A stretch of 22,434 bases of DNA from a virus. Location of the stretch: the IMG/VR virus record IMGVR_UViG_3300017757_000178, positions 1-22,434 of that record; one strand, 5' to 3'. Below are positions 13,629 through 20,675 of this stretch, piece by piece (position 1 is the stretch's first letter; each line of letters begins with the position of its first letter). Both the position numbers and the translations under genes were made by a program. The notes beneath the pieces were generated by a model. The model saw nothing but the letters and a program-made list of their open reading frames with translations, ran no database searches and was not told where the DNA came from.

Positions 13629-16600
13629 TTAGCGCAGACGCCTGCGTTTAATTTTGGTCAGCTCGACCATCATGTCTGAGGCGGCTCTCGTTGTATTAGC
13701 AGACTGGATCGTGACGTTGTTGGTGATGTTGTCTCCACCTGTAGCTCTCGCGATTGCTCTCAACAGGTTGCGCGTCTCGCTACCGCTTGCGTTCTGAGCT
13801 GCTGCGCCACCTGCCGGGTCAATCGCTGCCCCTATGGCTACCGGTGAGCCTGCGGACGGCAGGCCTAGCTTTTCGGTCTGAGCCGCGTTGATGACGGTGC
13901 CGCTGGATGGCGCTTTCCACCGACCGAACGCAGGAGCATCGATAAGGCTGAGTTTGCCGGTCGATGACCTGAAAGCTTCTTGCCCAAGCTCGTTCACCGT
14001 GTAGGTCTGGCCAGCCGACACAGGGCCACCCGTCCACACCCCTTTCGGTTTGCCGCCGTTTGCCGCTGCTGCTGCTGCTGCTGCTTTCGCTGCTGCCTCG
14101 ACCCTTCGGAGTTCCGAGATCGCATTGTTTGCGTAGGTGCCCCAGGCGGTCTCACCTTCTCTGATGATCACGTCGGTGGTATTCCCTACCGCTTCATTGA
14201 ACTGCGAGAGCAGATCGTTCTTTCTAGTGTTGTATGCCTCTTCGGCCTTGGTCTTCTCTGCGGCTGCATCCTTTTCGAGCTTGTCGATCTTGTCGATTAG
14301 CACTTTCGTTGCGTCGGCAGTGGCTTTCTTGTCGTCACGTTTCTGCTGCTCGAGCCTCTTGATCTCATCCTCGTTGTCGCGCTTGATCTGCTGCATGTCT
14401 TCCTCGAGCTGCTGCTCGGCCGCTTTGCCGTCAGCCTTGGCTTGTGCGATGTCAGCCTCGGCAGTTTTCTCCTTCGCCGCTGCGTCCTCCTTCACCTGGT
14501 CAATCTCGCCCTGGAGCTTCTTCTGCAGATCCGCTTGGTCCTTAGCTCTCCGCGACATTTCATCGTCGTGTGCGATCTCCTTCAGCCGTATCTCCTCTTC
14601 TTTTGCTTCGCGCTTTGCGTCAAGAGTCGCCAGCTCTTCCGCCTTCTGCTTTTCAAGTATGGCGGCTGCAGCGTCTGCATCCATGCGCTGAAGCGCTGCC
14701 TGTGCGCGGAGGCCTTCCTCTCCTCCCAGCTTGACCTGCTGCTGAAGCTTGAACTTATCCAGGGCCGCTAACTGCTTCTCGGCCGGTGTCAATTCGCGAA
14801 GAGCATCAAGCGCCGCGTCGTAACGACTCTCGACCGCTTCCTTCTGCTTGTCGATAGCCCTGAGCTGTTCGTCCAGGTTTCTCATCACCCTGGAGTGGGC
14901 CGCATTGGCTGCGTCGACCTCTTTGTTGTAGCGACTAGCCACGGCCTGCTTAGCCGTCTCCATGTTGCGGATGAGCTGGTCTGAGTTGCTCTTCTGCTTT
15001 GCGGCGACTTTCTCAAGACTTGAGACCCTGGCGTCGGTGCTCTGCTTGATGGCGGCCTTCTGATCCTCTGCTGACCTGCTCGCCGCGTCTCCGATTTCTT
15101 TAATTGCCCTGATCTCGTCGTCCTTACCGGCCTGGAAAACCTTCGAGGCATCCTTGAGCGAGGCGATGTCGTCCTTAATCGCGCCCACTTCAGCCTTGAG
15201 GCCTTCCTCTAGTTTTTTCTTGAAGTTATTAAAAGCCTCTCCCATCGCTTTCACCTGTGCCTTGAATGCCGCCGACCCTTTCTTGATCTCGGCCTCAAGT
15301 TCTTCCGTGGACATTTCGCTCATTTCTACGTTGAGCGCCTTTGCGGCACCTGTAGTTTCGACGTACTTGTCCTTTAGTGCGCCGAGCATCTGACTGCTGA
15401 GGCCTAAGCCTTTGATCAACTGGTCGAAGACCTGAAGCTGCTGCTTCTCTGCGTCTGTCATGTCGTCGATGCCGCCTGATGCTTCGATTAAGGCTTCGCG
15501 CTGTTTCTTTAGCGTTTGAACCGAAGCGCTAACGACATTTTTAACGTCCCCTTCGATCTTTTTGAGCTGGGCCATTTTTTCAGCTCGCTCTGCAGGGGAG
15601 GCATCCTTCAGAGAAAGCGCGACCTCCTTGTACTTAGCGACTAGCTGATCAGTTCCCTCTGTGACGGCGCCGAATTCCTTGAGAAGGGCGACAGTGCCGT
15701 GCTGTAGCTGCCCTTCTTCTGCAGTCGTCAATCCCAGCCCTTTACGGAGGCCTTCGAGGCTTGCGTCGAAGTGGCCCACGCGCTCGACTGTGGTCTCCCA
15801 TTCTTTGTCTAGCTTCACTAACTCTGTATTGGCACCTTCAGCAGCGATGCCCTGCTCGTTGAGTGCATCGGCCAGGCTTTTATGAATTGGCTCCGCCGTC
15901 TCACCAACTGCGTTGGCTTGCTTGTGGACGTTGTTGTAGGTGTTCCATGCAGCGGCTACCGCCCCGATAGCTATCCCCAGCCCAATAAGAGAGGCGTTAG
16001 CTAAAAGAAACTTAGCCATAGCGACGGTGGCTTTTCCTGCTGCGGCTCCCGCGGCGGCCAATCCAGAGGCGATGCTTGCGAGGATCGCCTTCATGCTCAG
16101 CCCCTTCATGGCCAGGAGCGCGGCGTTGTATTTGTTCTGGGCGAAGGTTGCGATTTCCTTGATGGTGATGGTCTTGGCTAGTGCAGCCTTGAGGCCGACA
16201 AGGGCGGCACCCGCACCCTTGATGGCGCCAACAAGCATCCCGGACATAGTGGTTCCCAATGCCGCCATCTGAGCCCCGACCCCGGCGGCTGCGGCGCCAA
16301 TCCCTGCAAATAATCCACCTGCAGCGGCTGCTTTAAATAGGACGAACCCAGCGGCGGCTATAGCTGCAGCGCCGCCAACAGCAGTAAGGGCTATCACCAG
16401 ATTTTGCAGCGGCCCAGGCAGCGAATTGAACGCATTGAGGATCCCTGTCAGGGCATCGATTAAAGGCTTGAGGAAGCCCTCGAGGAACTTGCCCACGGTT
16501 GCGGATGCTGCGTCAAAGGCTGACGCCAGGAGTGTCAGAGAACCCGCGATTCCCGAGAGGTTGGCTTTTGATGTTTCGGCGGCGGTGCCGGTCGCGTTAT

Positions 16601-17840
16601 TGGTAGAAGTCGCGAATGCTTCGATGTCCTCGACCGAATTAGACAGCAGTGCTCTGAAGCCTGCGGCCGCTTCTTCACCAAAGAGGATTTTAGAAACAAG
16701 CTGCTGCTCGTTAGCGGACAGGTCGCCGAGTGATTTTTTGAGCGTCTTTAGGAGCTCAGGGAATGACTTGAGGTCGCCTTCAGCATTGGTTACATCAGCA
16801 CCCAGCATTTGAAGCGTCTTCGACAGTCGACCAGTACCTCTTGAGAGTTTTGAGAATTCGCTGTTTTGACCAGCGGCAGCAGCCGACAAGCGGCTAAGGC
16901 CGGCGCGGAGCGTCGTGCCTGCTTGTGATCCCCTGATGCCTGCGTTAGCAAGCAGTCCTAGGGCCGCTGACGTGTCCTCAAGCGATAAGCCCAGGCCGTT
17001 AGCAATTGGGCCTACATACTTGAGAGCTTCGCCCAGGTCTGTTACGGACTGATTCGATCCGTTCGCCGTAGCCGTCAATACGTCAACGACGGCAGTGGTC
17101 TCGTCTGTCGATTTCTGGAATCCACCCATAGCGCCGATGACGGTGTCCGACATCTGCTCCATGCCTTGGCCTGCAGCGGCTGCGCCTTCTGCAATGCCCG
17201 GCAATGCTTCCTGTACTTCTTGTGCGGAGAATCCGGCACGAGCCAAACCGATGGAGGCTTCAGCGAGCTCGCCGGTGGTGAACTTAGTATCCTTGGCTAG
17301 TCCGATGACTGCGTCCTGCAGCGCCAGAAACTCGTCCTCAGTGGCGCCAGAGATTGAGGCGGTCTGGCGAAGTGCTGCGTCGATGTCAACGAATCTCCCA
17401 ACGGCTCCGCCTATGGCTCCCGAGATGACTGATCCGAAGTTATTAAGCGGAGCTAGCAGTTGCTGGCCAATCGCCAGGCCGATGCCTTGAGGGATGCCCT
17501 GAAGGACTTGCTTGAATCCTTGAGCGATGCCGCCTAGAGCTTGATCGGCTGCGTCCTTGGTCTTTTCTAGCGAATCGTTGAGCTTGTCTACTCTCTGCTT
17601 TATTTGTGTAAGGGTTTGAACAGTGCCTTTCGAGTTCTTAAATACCTTGTTGACCTTGTCGTATTCAAAGCCTAATTTCTTAGCCGAAGCTACAATTTTG
17701 CCTAGCGCTGTGCCTATGGGACGCTGGGATCCTGCCGCCTGCTGTGCGCCTTGATTTAGCTTTTTGTAGTATTGCTGAAGCGCAACAGTTGCGGGGGTGG
17801 TGTCGAGACCTAGCTTGAGATTTACATTCCCCTGAGTCAC
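13629..17840 (-). CDS. Tail tape measure protein
   Basis: This 1403-residue protein sets tail length and helps in DNA delivery. Residues about 150-400 hold the TP901-type tape measure core: LAKDTKFTTGELAEASIGLARAGF, AMGGFQKSTDETTAVVDVLTATAN, LGEALKYVGPIANGLGLSLEDTSAALGLLANAGIRGSQAGTTLRAGLSRL, each typical of the family. Hydrophobic Ala/Gly-rich segments lie at about 480-550 and 590-632, perhaps membrane-inserting. Roughly 880-1245 is a charged coiled coil, followed by an alanine run and a C-terminus ending KRRRLR. By the usual relation of about 0.15 nm per residue, the tail would be roughly 210 nm long. The GTG start lies 32 nt from the recurring element, and terminator-like hairpins flank the gene on both sides. 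Confidence 0.93.
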   Translation of the reverse strand: MTQGNVNLKLGLDTTPATVALQQYYKKLNQGAQQAAGSQRPIGTALGKIVASAKKLGFEYDKVNKVFKNSKGTVQTLTQIKQRVDKLNDSLEKTKDAADQALGGIAQGFKQVLQGIPQGIGLAIGQQLLAPLNNFGSVISGAIGGAVGRFVDIDAALRQTASISGATEDEFLALQDAVIGLAKDTKFTTGELAEASIGLARAGFSAQEVQEALPGIAEGAAAAGQGMEQMSDTVIGAMGGFQKSTDETTAVVDVLTATANGSNQSVTDLGEALKYVGPIANGLGLSLEDTSAALGLLANAGIRGSQAGTTLRAGLSRLSAAAAGQNSEFSKLSRGTGRLSKTLQMLGADVTNAEGDLKSFPELLKTLKKSLGDLSANEQQLVSKILFGEEAAAGFRALLSNSVEDIEAFATSTNNATGTAAETSKANLSGIAGSLTLLASAFDAASATVGKFLEGFLKPLIDALTGILNAFNSLPGPLQNLVIALTAVGGAAAIAAAGFVLFKAAAAGGLFAGIGAAAAGVGAQMAALGTTMSGMLVGAIKGAGAALVGLKAALAKTITIKEIATFAQNKYNAALLAMKGLSMKAILASIASGLAAAGAAAGKATVAMAKFLLANASLIGLGIAIGAVAAAWNTYNNVHKQANAVGETAEPIHKSLADALNEQGIAAEGANTELVKLDKEWETTVERVGHFDASLEGLRKGLGLTTAEEGQLQHGTVALLKEFGAVTEGTDQLVAKYKEVALSLKDASPAERAEKMAQLKKIEGDVKNVVSASVQTLKKQREALIEASGGIDDMTDAEKQQLQVFDQLIKGLGLSSQMLGALKDKYVETTGAAKALNVEMSEMSTEELEAEIKKGSAAFKAQVKAMGEAFNNFKKKLEEGLKAEVGAIKDDIASLKDASKVFQAGKDDEIRAIKEIGDAASRSAEDQKAAIKQSTDARVSSLEKVAAKQKSNSDQLIRNMETAKQAVASRYNKEVDAANAAHSRVMRNLDEQLRAIDKQKEAVESRYDAALDALRELTPAEKQLAALDKFKLQQQVKLGGEEGLRAQAALQRMDADAAAAILEKQKAEELATLDAKREAKEEEIRLKEIAHDDEMSRRAKDQADLQKKLQGEIDQVKEDAAAKEKTAEADIAQAKADGKAAEQQLEEDMQQIKRDNEDEIKRLEQQKRDDKKATADATKVLIDKIDKLEKDAAAEKTKAEEAYNTRKNDLLSQFNEAVGNTTDVIIREGETAWGTYANNAISELRRVEAAAKAAAAAAAANGGKPKGVWTGGPVSAGQTYTVNELGQEAFRSSTGKLSLIDAPAFGRWKAPSSGTVINAAQTEKLGLPSAGSPVAIGAAIDPAGGAAAQNASGSETRNLLRAIARATGGDNITNNVTIQSANTTRAASDMMVELTKIKRRRLR

Positions 17841-17943: not shown

Positions 17944-18348
17944 TTAAGCGAGAGAAGTAACGCGGAAGTGGCCTTCGCCTTGTCCGCCAACTTCGTTGAC
18001 CTCGATGATGTCGTCGATCATGAATCCGTAGCCGCCATCTGTGAGCTGAACGCTGTCGAGCAGCGTTGGGCCTGAGGTTGTAACTGTTCCGGCTAGGCCG
18101 GCTCCAAGCTGGCCGCTGACGCCAGCCGAAGGAATGAAGGTGACAGCAACACCAGAGGTGTCAGCAGCGGTGAACGGGTTGTCGGTGTTGAAGGCCACGG
18201 CGCCAGAGATGACGCCAATTTTTTGACCTTCATGAATAGCGGAGACGATTGCAGTTGCAACACCGGTTCCGCCGTTTTCAGTGAAGGTGATGGTGTCACC
18301 AACTCTGAATTTGTCGTTAGAGATGCGAATGACCTCAAGGTTTGTCAT
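17944..18348 (-). CDS. Tail-tube-associated repeat protein (possible extension of the major tail protein)
   Basis: From the ATG at 18348 this is a 134-residue protein. It has two beta repeats: ISNDKFRVGDTITFTENGGTGVAT and LTDGGYGFMIDDIIEVNEVGGQGEG, of the (G)GYxVGDxIxV type found in phage structural proteins. The frame is the same as that of the major tail protein upstream and is open all the way to its TAG, with no ATG, GTG or TTG in between; the extra 53 codons look like the first half of the first repeat. Three readings are possible: start at this ATG (a partial CGGAACC element lies 34 nt before it), start at a CTG at 18483 behind a strong GGAGGGG site, or amber readthrough giving a long tail-tube form. 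The ATG is given as the conservative start. Confidence 0.6.
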   Translation of the reverse strand: MTNLEVIRISNDKFRVGDTITFTENGGTGVATAIVSAIHEGQKIGVISGAVAFNTDNPFTAADTSGVAVTFIPSAGVSGQLGAGLAGTVTTSGPTLLDSVQLTDGGYGFMIDDIIEVNEVGGQGEGHFRVTSLA

Positions 18349-18507
18349 GAGGTCGCCGCCTGTAACGATGTCAGCGGTTCCGATAGCCCCGTTAGGACCG
18401 GTGATGTCAACCAGAACACCATTGGTGTCCTGATTGGCGAAACCGGTGGAGGTGGTGACGCTTGAACCGTTGAGGGTTCTCAGCGCACCTTCAGCCCCTC
18501 CAGTCAG
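18349..18507 (-). other. Open in-frame segment between tail-tube TAG and downstream ATG
   Basis: Fifty-three sense codons encode LTGGAEGALRTLNGSS..., then TNGVLVDITGPNG and DIVTGGDL, which complete the first repeat of the downstream protein. A GGAGGGG ribosome-binding-like sequence (18495-18501) and GAGGG/CCCTC arms that could form a hairpin lie just behind the stop. A stop-free run of this length has roughly an 8 percent chance in random sequence, so openness alone is not proof. Confidence 0.5.
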
Positions 18508-19092
18508 CTAAGCAAGGCCGAGACCCAGTGCGCCGTAACCAGCGGCTTCGATTGTGAAGCTCACGATCGAACCAGCCTCCACGCTCTCAGAGAAGCTTTG
18601 AAGAGTTGCGTAGCCATAGACCTGCTCGCCTCCGGGAGTTGTGCGGCCAATCTTGACGCGAATACCGCCGGCCACGTTGTTCTTCTCTGCGAGACGCATG
18701 ACCTGGTAGCCAGCATCGTTGAAGTCGGTAACGCCGCTGAGGCTGATTGACCAGCTCTTGGAAGTCGCAACGCTCTGGCTGTAGCCGGAGTCGTCGGAAT
18801 ACGTCACAACTTCTTCAGACGAGGTGTCGGTAGACAGAGAAGCGTCTGTCAATCCGAGCAGTTCGACTGGGGTCGCAGCGCCTGCAACGATGTCAGAGCC
18901 GCCGACATTGATTTCGGCCACTGTGCCCTCGGTGACCACGGCATCAGTTGCCACGACGTTGGCTTCTGATGCGCCCAGGGCGATGAATCCAGTTGCGCCA
19001 ACACCGCCAGTCACGCTGTTTACGTTGACCGCTGTGGCCAGGCAAGGGACTAAGTAGACCTTGAAGCCGAACGCGGATGAAAAATTTGCCAT
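18508..19092 (-). CDS. Major tail (tube) protein
   Basis: A 194-residue tail-tube subunit candidate that polymerises around the tape measure. It begins MANFSSAFGFKVYLVPCLAT and contains EEVVTYSDDSGYSQSVATSKSWSISLSGVTDFNDAGYQVMRLAE, then GGEQVYGYATLQSFSESVEAGSIVSFTIEAAGYGAL. The TSKSWSISLSG...D..DAGYQ block is typical of TP901-type major tail proteins. The length suits the family. The gene follows the tail-terminator-like gene and precedes the tape measure, which fits. It ends with TAG, behind which the same frame remains open. No ribosome binding site is evident; the recurring element is 52 nt upstream, farther than usual. Confidence 0.82.
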   Translation of the reverse strand: MANFSSAFGFKVYLVPCLATAVNVNSVTGGVGATGFIALGASEANVVATDAVVTEGTVAEINVGGSDIVAGAATPVELLGLTDASLSTDTSSEEVVTYSDDSGYSQSVATSKSWSISLSGVTDFNDAGYQVMRLAEKNNVAGGIRVKIGRTTPGGEQVYGYATLQSFSESVEAGSIVSFTIEAAGYGALGLGLA

Positions 19093-19134: not shown

Positions 19135-19144
19135 CAGGGTTCCG
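19135..19144 (-). promoter_or_regulatory. Recurring CGGAACCCTG element before major tail gene
   Basis: Reads CGGAACCCTG followed by AAAGG on the minus strand, 52 nt before the ATG at 19092 and three bases downstream of the palindrome at 19148-19171. Confidence 0.45.
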
Positions 19145-19730: not shown

Positions 19731-20135
19731 GTGATTGCGCAGCAAAATCTCCCGCTTAGGGAGTCACCGTCTGAACACCTTTACCACTTGGAAGCCATGA
19801 CATCTGCCGAAGCGCGTCGACTCTGGCGACGTGCAATTAAAGCCGCTTGGGGTGACCGCTGCGCCTACTGCAACGCCACACCTATCGACGATAAATCGCT
19901 CACTATTGACCACGTAAAGCCCAAAGCCCACGGCGGCAAGGACATGACAAGTAATTGCATCCCGGCCTGTCGACATTGCAACGCCAACAAGGGATCGCGG
20001 GACTGGATTTCATGGTTTCGTGAACAAGATTTTCACTCAGATTGGCGCGAAATAGAGATCCGGCATTGGCTTAAGACCGGAGAGGTTCTTCGTCAGTTAG
20101 CCGTTAACGCTGACGAAGACGTCCTCGCGAGCTAA
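19731..20135 (+). CDS. HNH homing endonuclease (only plus-strand gene)
   Basis: A 134-residue free-standing HNH nuclease. The zinc knuckle cysteines are Cys44/Cys47 and Cys80/Cys83; the catalytic core is LTIDHVKPKAHGG with His61, followed by SNCIPACRHCNANKGSRDW. The EARRLWRRAIKAAWGDRCAYC lead-in matches cyanophage HNH proteins. The first start is a GTG at 19731 without a good ribosome binding site; ATG at 19797 (MTSAEARRLWRR) is a fair alternative with GGAA just before it. The gene faces against the operon between the T chaperone and the tail-terminator-like gene, and its last 39 nt overlap the end of T antisense. It has no copy of the recurring element. This fits a later homing insertion. 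Confidence 0.88.
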   Translation: MIAQQNLPLRESPSEHLYHLEAMTSAEARRLWRRAIKAAWGDRCAYCNATPIDDKSLTIDHVKPKAHGGKDMTSNCIPACRHCNANKGSRDWISWFREQDFHSDWREIEIRHWLKTGEVLRQLAVNADEDVLAS

Positions 20136-20675
20136 GAACATCTCTTCGAAATCGGGAACTGTTGCCTTTGCCTTTATTCGGCCAAGAGTCACATCGATGA
20201 CTTGGCCAGAGGCTCTCCGCTGGGCGATCAGCAGGCCTTCCATTCCTCCATTGACTGGGCGAGGCGCGAGGAGGATGAATCCATCCCCAATCGCTGCCAC
20301 GGGATCTGGAGCAGGGATGGAGCTCTTCATCTTCTTCATCTCGGAGAACACGAAAAGCGCCCAAGAAGGAAGGAGCTTTTTGTCGATCAGTTCGAAGTAA
20401 GCGGCCGCGTTGATCTCGTCCGGTTCATTTTTCTCGCCAGCGGTTGCGAAGAAACAGAAGTCAGATGCCTTGAATGGAGTCTTGGTTTTCTTTGGATCAC
20501 GGTTTAAATTTGCCGTCAGCGCCGTGAGGTTGGCCACGCCGATTTCGCTTTCGTGCAGCTCACGCCGACGAAGCTCCTGACCGTTTTTAATTGCCTGGAG
20601 TACATAGGTCGACGGGAGCTCCCCGAATGTCTCAGTGGAGAACTGAGGGTCTCCTGGCCAGAGGCGTTTAGCCAT
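20097..20675 (-). CDS. Tail assembly chaperone T (C-terminal part of the G-T frameshift product)
   Basis: A 192-residue frame from the ATG at 20675 that is probably made mainly as the C-terminal part of a G-T fusion. The frame stays open upstream, adding 19 codons (VDDGSYEEPESLDWGDLFW) back to the slippery site, so the fusion would have 395 residues. In lambda such fusion chaperones bind the tape measure and recruit the tail-tube protein. Visible features are a helical region (SDFCFFATAGEKNEPDEINAAAYFELIDKKLLPSWALFVFSEMKKMKSS) and a beta-rich C-terminus ending in DVFVSVNG. A GGGGGGACC stretch 12 nt before the ATG could allow separate initiation. The end overlaps the HNH gene antisense by 39 nt. 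Confidence 0.75.
   Translation of the reverse strand: MAKRLWPGDPQFSTETFGELPSTYVLQAIKNGQELRRRELHESEIGVANLTALTANLNRDPKKTKTPFKASDFCFFATAGEKNEPDEINAAAYFELIDKKLLPSWALFVFSEMKKMKSSIPAPDPVAAIGDGFILLAPRPVNGGMEGLLIAQRRASGQVIDVTLGRIKAKATVPDFEEMFLAREDVFVSVNG

Follow-up and report, generated by a model that had tools for sequence, protein, structure and literature searches.

The major tail (tail-tube, MTP) gene in the stretch of viral DNA analyzed here (the window, the 22,434 bases of an IMG/VR virus record) ends in a UAG codon that is probably subject to programmed readthrough, which would yield a minor, C-terminally extended tail-tube protein. In the family related to the cultured Synechococcus phage S-CBS2, a leaky UAG apparently adds one or two β-domains to some of the tube subunits. 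Sequence comparison makes readthrough the best-supported explanation of the locus, in line with the initial annotation, which had suggested that a minor long tail-tube form arises in this way.

The tail-tube gene and its in-frame extension

The whole feature, i.e., the tail-tube gene and the extension, lies on the minus strand of the window (Table 1). The gene of 194 residues does end in TAG, as the initial annotation had claimed, and the same frame then stays open for 187 codons (18507-17947) up to a closing TAA (17944-17946). The MTP matched PF06199 (phage tail tube protein) with an E value of 2e-10 and 41.2 bits against a curated cut-off of 23.8, and phrog_38654 with an E value of 1.4e-53; the best PDB match of the AF2 tail-tube model was lambda gpV (7t4f; E 5e-4). 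Next after the extension comes the tape measure gene (13629-17840), and the window holds no chaperone gene between the tail tube and the tape measure, unlike lambda. Before the tail-tube gene, positions 20100-20675 (minus strand) matched minor tail protein T weakly (E 0.023). An HNH endonuclease gene (19731-20135, plus strand) is located just upstream of the tail-tube region on the strand opposite the tail genes, and the S-CBS2 and S-CRES phages carry an HNH gene at the same place and in the same orientation.

Table 1. Features of the tail-tube locus in the window
Feature	Position	Strand	Evidence
Major tail (tail-tube, MTP) gene, 194 aa, TAG end	18508..19092	-	PF06199, phrog_38654, AF2 match
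UAG stop, proposed readthrough site	18508..18510	-	TAG in 41/41 with extension; TGA/TAA in 68/68 without
In-frame extension, 187 codons + TAA	17944..18507	-	Purifying selection over full length
Extension β-domain 1, residues 15-91	18235..18465	-	HMM from single-domain relatives, i-E 7e-8
Extension β-domain 2, residues 98-186	17950..18216	-	HMM, i-E 3e-19
Internal ATG, codon 54, first conventional start in extension, within domain 1	18346..18348	-	
Proposed recoding motif TTAGCTGACTGGAGG: T before stop, TAG, CTG, ACT, GGAGG	18497..18511	-	Position frequencies, 41 relatives
Stable mRNA 3' of stop, without defined consensus fold	18427..18510	-	Synonymous-shuffle folding z

An open frame of 187 codons was retained in only 0.04% of mononucleotide shuffles. 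Among six double-domain relatives, pN/pS in the tail-tube frame was 0.06-0.56 for codons 2-53 and 0.20-0.39 for codons 54-187, while the mean for the other two frames ranged between 1.4 and 2.5 (1.5 and 2.5 for codons 2-53). The extension is protein coding from its first codons, including the 53 that precede the ATG. As the initial annotation had stated, these 53 codons contain no ATG, GTG, or TTG, the first of them being the ATG of codon 54 at 18348. The complete extensions of three relatives (L061, L127, and L167) have none at all.

The β repeat that had been described as spanning the parts before and after this ATG turned out to consist of two copies of one domain, recognized by the HMM at residues ~15-91 and 98-186. 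For the 85-aa extension domain of S-CBS2, AF2 predicted an all-β fold with a pLDDT of 97.6, in which the first strand begins with residue 5 of the extension, so that the fold sets in directly behind the stop. The ColabFold model of the whole 382-aa product had a moderate pLDDT of 69.7 only, and the domain claims are therefore based on the HMM and the S-CBS2 single-domain model. The extension gave no Pfam Ig or FN3 match and the S-CBS2 domain model no PDB match at E < 1, and thus the domain is not recognizably Ig or FN3. Its best BFVD matches were a protein of 78 aa that shows full identity in the matched region, as expected of S-CBS2 gp20 itself, and Syn5 gp58 (A4ZRD9; TMq 0.83, E 1.7e-5); regions of larger cyanophage virion proteins matched more weakly. 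In BLASTP, the C-terminal domain of Syn5 gp58 was 40% identical to the S-CBS2 domain (E 3e-14). Syn5 gp58 associates with the capsid, and its precise location has yet to be settled (PMC9207676). The matches to gp58 and to the cyanophage virion proteins make the domain look like a virion module shared among cyanophages, with the difference that in Syn5 it belongs to an ordinary 169-aa podovirus gene with no internal stop. In S-CBS2, gp20 (NC_015463.1, 12118-12354) is annotated as a separate "structural protein" with a database start at a GTG, residue 8 (seven codons into the extension), which falls inside the first β-strand. S-CBS2 gp20 probably belongs to a tail-tube fusion and has been annotated wrongly.

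Stop codon, junction sequence, and mRNA stability in relatives

We drew tail-tube relatives from viral contigs and cultured phages and inspected the 3' end of each distinct gene. The 109 distinct MTP ends comprised 41 with TAG and 68 with TGA or TAA. A homologous in-frame extension of 81-187 codons (two were cut by contig ends) stood behind every TAG and behind none of the TGA or TAA codons. This comparison, which the initial annotation had proposed as a check, thus found TAG in 41/41 extended genes and no replacement of the stop by a sense codon. The extensions had one domain (81-92 codons) or two (185-187 codons). S-CBS2 shows the same arrangement, i.e., TAG followed by a one-domain extension, and its MTP is 87% identical to that of S-CRES3, which has TGA and no extension.

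In an MTP tree built without the last 12 residues, extension and stop type needed at least nine changes each, and the two changed together in all three independent pairs on well-supported branches; with only three such contrasts, the phylogenetic sign test is suggestive and not significant. We also scanned, independently of the protein, for a 17-base motif in which the stop was preceded by AAT or GCT. Of the 56 loci found, 44 had a tail-tube end upstream, and 12 were unrelated sites with no long frame. At 43 of the 44 a scored extension was present, and at the other one the contig broke off. A tighter version of the motif had no match in prokaryote genomes. The motif is present in a single copy in the window, in S-CBS2, and in a close relative of 74.7 kb (G001). 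The single-domain extensions proved so divergent that their alignment could not serve for scanning contigs.

In five relatives (L004, L021, L022, L025, and L031), tail-tube and extension types were shuffled. The extensions of L021 and L022 are 79-84% identical to that of the window, with tail-tube proteins only ~48% identical, and L004 has a tube similar to that of the window and an extension of another, one-domain type. Judging from these pairings, the site of exchange seems to be close to the stop codon. Junction and extension may in part have been swapped together as one cassette, and the 41 cases are therefore not independent.

The base before TAG was T in all 41 extended genes. Their last sense codon was AAT 25 times and AAC never, the others being GCT, AGT, CCT, GTT, and ATT; elsewhere in the genes of this group Asn was encoded by AAC 220 times and by AAT 57 times, and the last codon in the TGA/TAA group was AAC 29 times and AAT never. 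The codon after TAG was CTG in 37 genes and TTG in 4. No other Leu codon was found there, nor ATG or GTG; across the extensions, the Leu codons were CTC (84), CTT (56), CTG (26), and TTG (19). The following base was A in 40 cases and G in one, position 8 was T in 38/41, and R-G-R-R-G came next. The first base 3' of the stop was C in 37/41 genes that end in TAG and T in 51/68 that end in TGA or TAA; in bacteria, a U at this position (+4) has been linked to more stringent termination, an effect seen for cyanobacteria mainly with UAA (PMC5289835). The invariance of synonymous sites at position -1 and in codon +1 is a constraint at the nucleotide level beyond that on the protein, and the constraints at the junction are such as a recoding signal would need. 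To our knowledge, the motif U-UAG-CUGAYU-GGAGG matches no established readthrough context. The relevant CTG is the one directly after TAG, which the initial annotation had not singled out; it had considered a CTG start behind GGAGGGG (codon 9, GCG CTG), where relatives have CTT, TTG, or CTC, and GGAGG itself is absent in some of them, so that this start is disfavored.

We then determined the folding z of the mRNA against synonymous-codon shuffles in 75-base windows at 36 positions in 27 representatives. The most extreme value was found at 0 to +75 from the stop (mean -2.16), and of the other windows only the one at +15, which overlaps the first, fell outside the range of -1.3 to +0.9, with -1.73. 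When the first five codons were held constant, the mean z was -1.92 at +9 to +84, and it was below -1 in 22/28 cases. The control region after the MTP start also showed a mild excess of stability (mean z -1.06). RNAalifold gave no consensus structure on a MAFFT alignment of 27 junctions, and GGAGG as the 5' arm of a conserved stem was rejected, its pairing probability not being above that in synonymous shuffles. We conclude with moderate confidence that the mRNA is unusually stable just downstream of UAG, with no conserved fold.

Translation of the extension

In the mechanism that we propose, most ribosomes would terminate at UAG and produce the tail-tube protein (19.5 kDa in the window), while a fraction would decode UAG as an amino acid, probably via a near-cognate tRNA. 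The flanking signal would promote this decoding, perhaps assisted by the stable mRNA structure just downstream. The readthrough product would have 382 residues (~38 kDa) and carry two extra β-domains, which, by analogy with SPP1 and lambda, may project from the tube exterior in a subset of subunits. For S-CBS2, the calculated masses are 21.3 kDa for the MTP and ~29.6 kDa for the putative fusion, against ~8.3 kDa for a free protein begun at the CUG. The comparisons above demonstrate that junction and frame are conserved and that the extension is selected as protein; the readthrough event, its rate, the inserted amino acid, the presence of the product in virions, and its function at the surface are inferred.

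The extension could also be made by termination at UAG and a restart at the adjacent CUG or UUG, giving a separate virion protein of 81-187 aa. We regard such reinitiation as unlikely, even though codon +1 is always NUG, the base following it is nearly always A, and gp20 of S-CBS2 is annotated as a protein of its own. Since CUG and UUG are both NUG, a conserved adjacent NUG is allowed by readthrough and reinitiation alike. Nor is the missing SD before CUG informative, since the true MTP start also has no SD-like sequence, and SD strength thus cannot separate the two. ATG and GTG are generally better starts than CTG and TTG. Each is one step away from CTG or TTG, yet neither was found at codon +1 in any of the 41 genes. 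Reinitiation further gives no reason for the exclusive use of TAG or for AAT over AAC before it, and the putative start never overlaps the stop and never drifts apart from it. Weak structure would be expected of an initiation region, but the junction mRNA is unusually stable. Programmed readthrough fits the restriction to TAG, the T before it, the lack of ATG and GTG, and the stable mRNA, if CUG or UUG is part of the stop context. The weights that we give to readthrough and to reinitiation are judgements and not computed values.

An ordinary gene started at ATG 18348 (MTNLEV...), for which the initial annotation had also seen a sign, is very improbable. Most double-domain relatives do have an ATG there, preceded by a purine-rich stretch with a duplex energy of -3.3 to -9.5 kcal/mol, but in L031 the position is not occupied by a start codon, and the ATG has no counterpart in the single-domain relatives, some of which contain no start codon whatsoever. 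As domain 1 covers residues ~15-91, a start at codon 54 would cut it, and the 53 codons upstream are under selection at the protein level. A product begun there would not contain the peptides LTGGAEGALRTLNGSS... or NGVLVDITGPNG. The upstream element CGGAACC (18376-18382), which had been taken to mark a normal start, is not conserved: it was found in the near-identical L020 and in 0/6 diverged double-domain relatives. The window holds eight copies of CGGAACC, all on the minus strand, where 3.3 are expected and 1/100 shuffles reaches as many. Those at 741, 1590, 2435, and 3632 (minus strand) extend to CGGAACC(C/A)TA, another copy lies at 19138, and those at 1590, 2435, and 3632 are ~20-30 nt upstream of gene starts. 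CGGAACC is possibly a promoter or processing element.

Two further explanations appear still less probable. Every extension stands behind TAG, as would be expected if TAG were recoded genome-wide by a suppressor tRNA or an altered code, but ARAGORN found zero tRNA genes in S-CBS2, in G001, and in 60 of the 60.8 kb of a third record (G002), and TAG ends 16/64 genes in the first 50 kb of S-CBS2, several of them with another stop within 2-8 codons. Equally remote is a stop hop, or a pair of frameshifts returning to frame 0 across UAG. In-frame stop hopping is a recognized route to apparent readthrough (PMC5009743), but the codon before UAG varies (AAT, GCT, AGT, CCT, GTT, or ATT) and never resembles CTG or TTG, and re-pairing of the tRNA is thus not supported. 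Decoding of UAG itself remains our preferred reading.

Comparison with known systems

Stop-codon readthrough is known in viruses from the A1 coat extension of Q-beta, from MLV gag-pol, and from TMV. The arrangement proposed here would resemble these in having a leaky stop before an in-frame extension and a fixed low ratio of the two products; it differs in that those examples come from RNA viruses or retroviruses, whose stop contexts are different.

Among tailed phages, SPP1 produces gp17.1 and gp17.1* at 3:1 via a +1 frameshift at CCCUAA that adds 87 residues (PMC6316719, PMC8718954). As with gp17.1 and gp17.1*, a single start would give a major short and a minor long form, with a β-domain of similar size added at the MTP stop. 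In contrast to the +1 frameshift and the FN3 Ig-type domain of SPP1, the extension here stands in frame 0 behind UAG and has no recognizable Ig fold match. The product logic is the same as in SPP1, and the decoding route and the domain are different. Listeria phages A118, A500, and PSA likewise undergo a +1 frameshift in the gene of the major tail protein (PMC5009743) and, as proposed for the present family, obtain a second, longer MTP product by recoding; their extension is in another frame, whereas here it is in frame. The locus does not fall into the slippery-site frameshift class of the SPP1 and Listeria type, since the extension is in frame 0 and the codon before TAG varies. Lambda gpV, which the AF2 tube domain matches, and T5 pb6 likewise have an external C-terminal β-domain, but theirs is a Big_2 Ig-fold domain present on every subunit with no stop between (PMC8718954), whereas here a stop intervenes.

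On balance, we favor the view that U-UAG-CUGAYUGGAGG and the downstream RNA structure form a dedicated bacterial UAG-readthrough element that passes between the tail-tube genes of cyanophages as a cassette and is the first programmed readthrough described in a structural gene of a tailed dsDNA phage; our literature search, with most subscription papers outside its coverage, found no case of readthrough in tailed phages, so priority is not established.

In the literature that we consulted, minor long tail-tube forms are ascribed to frameshifting, and extended ones also to direct fusion on every subunit; here, apparently, a leaky stop is used. If this is true, the annotation of S-CBS2 gp20 needs correcting, and the junction would offer a naturally occurring context for readthrough in bacteria, with a signal that is compact and conserved. 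The decoding route would then be interchangeable, and the extended subunit would be what selection acts on.
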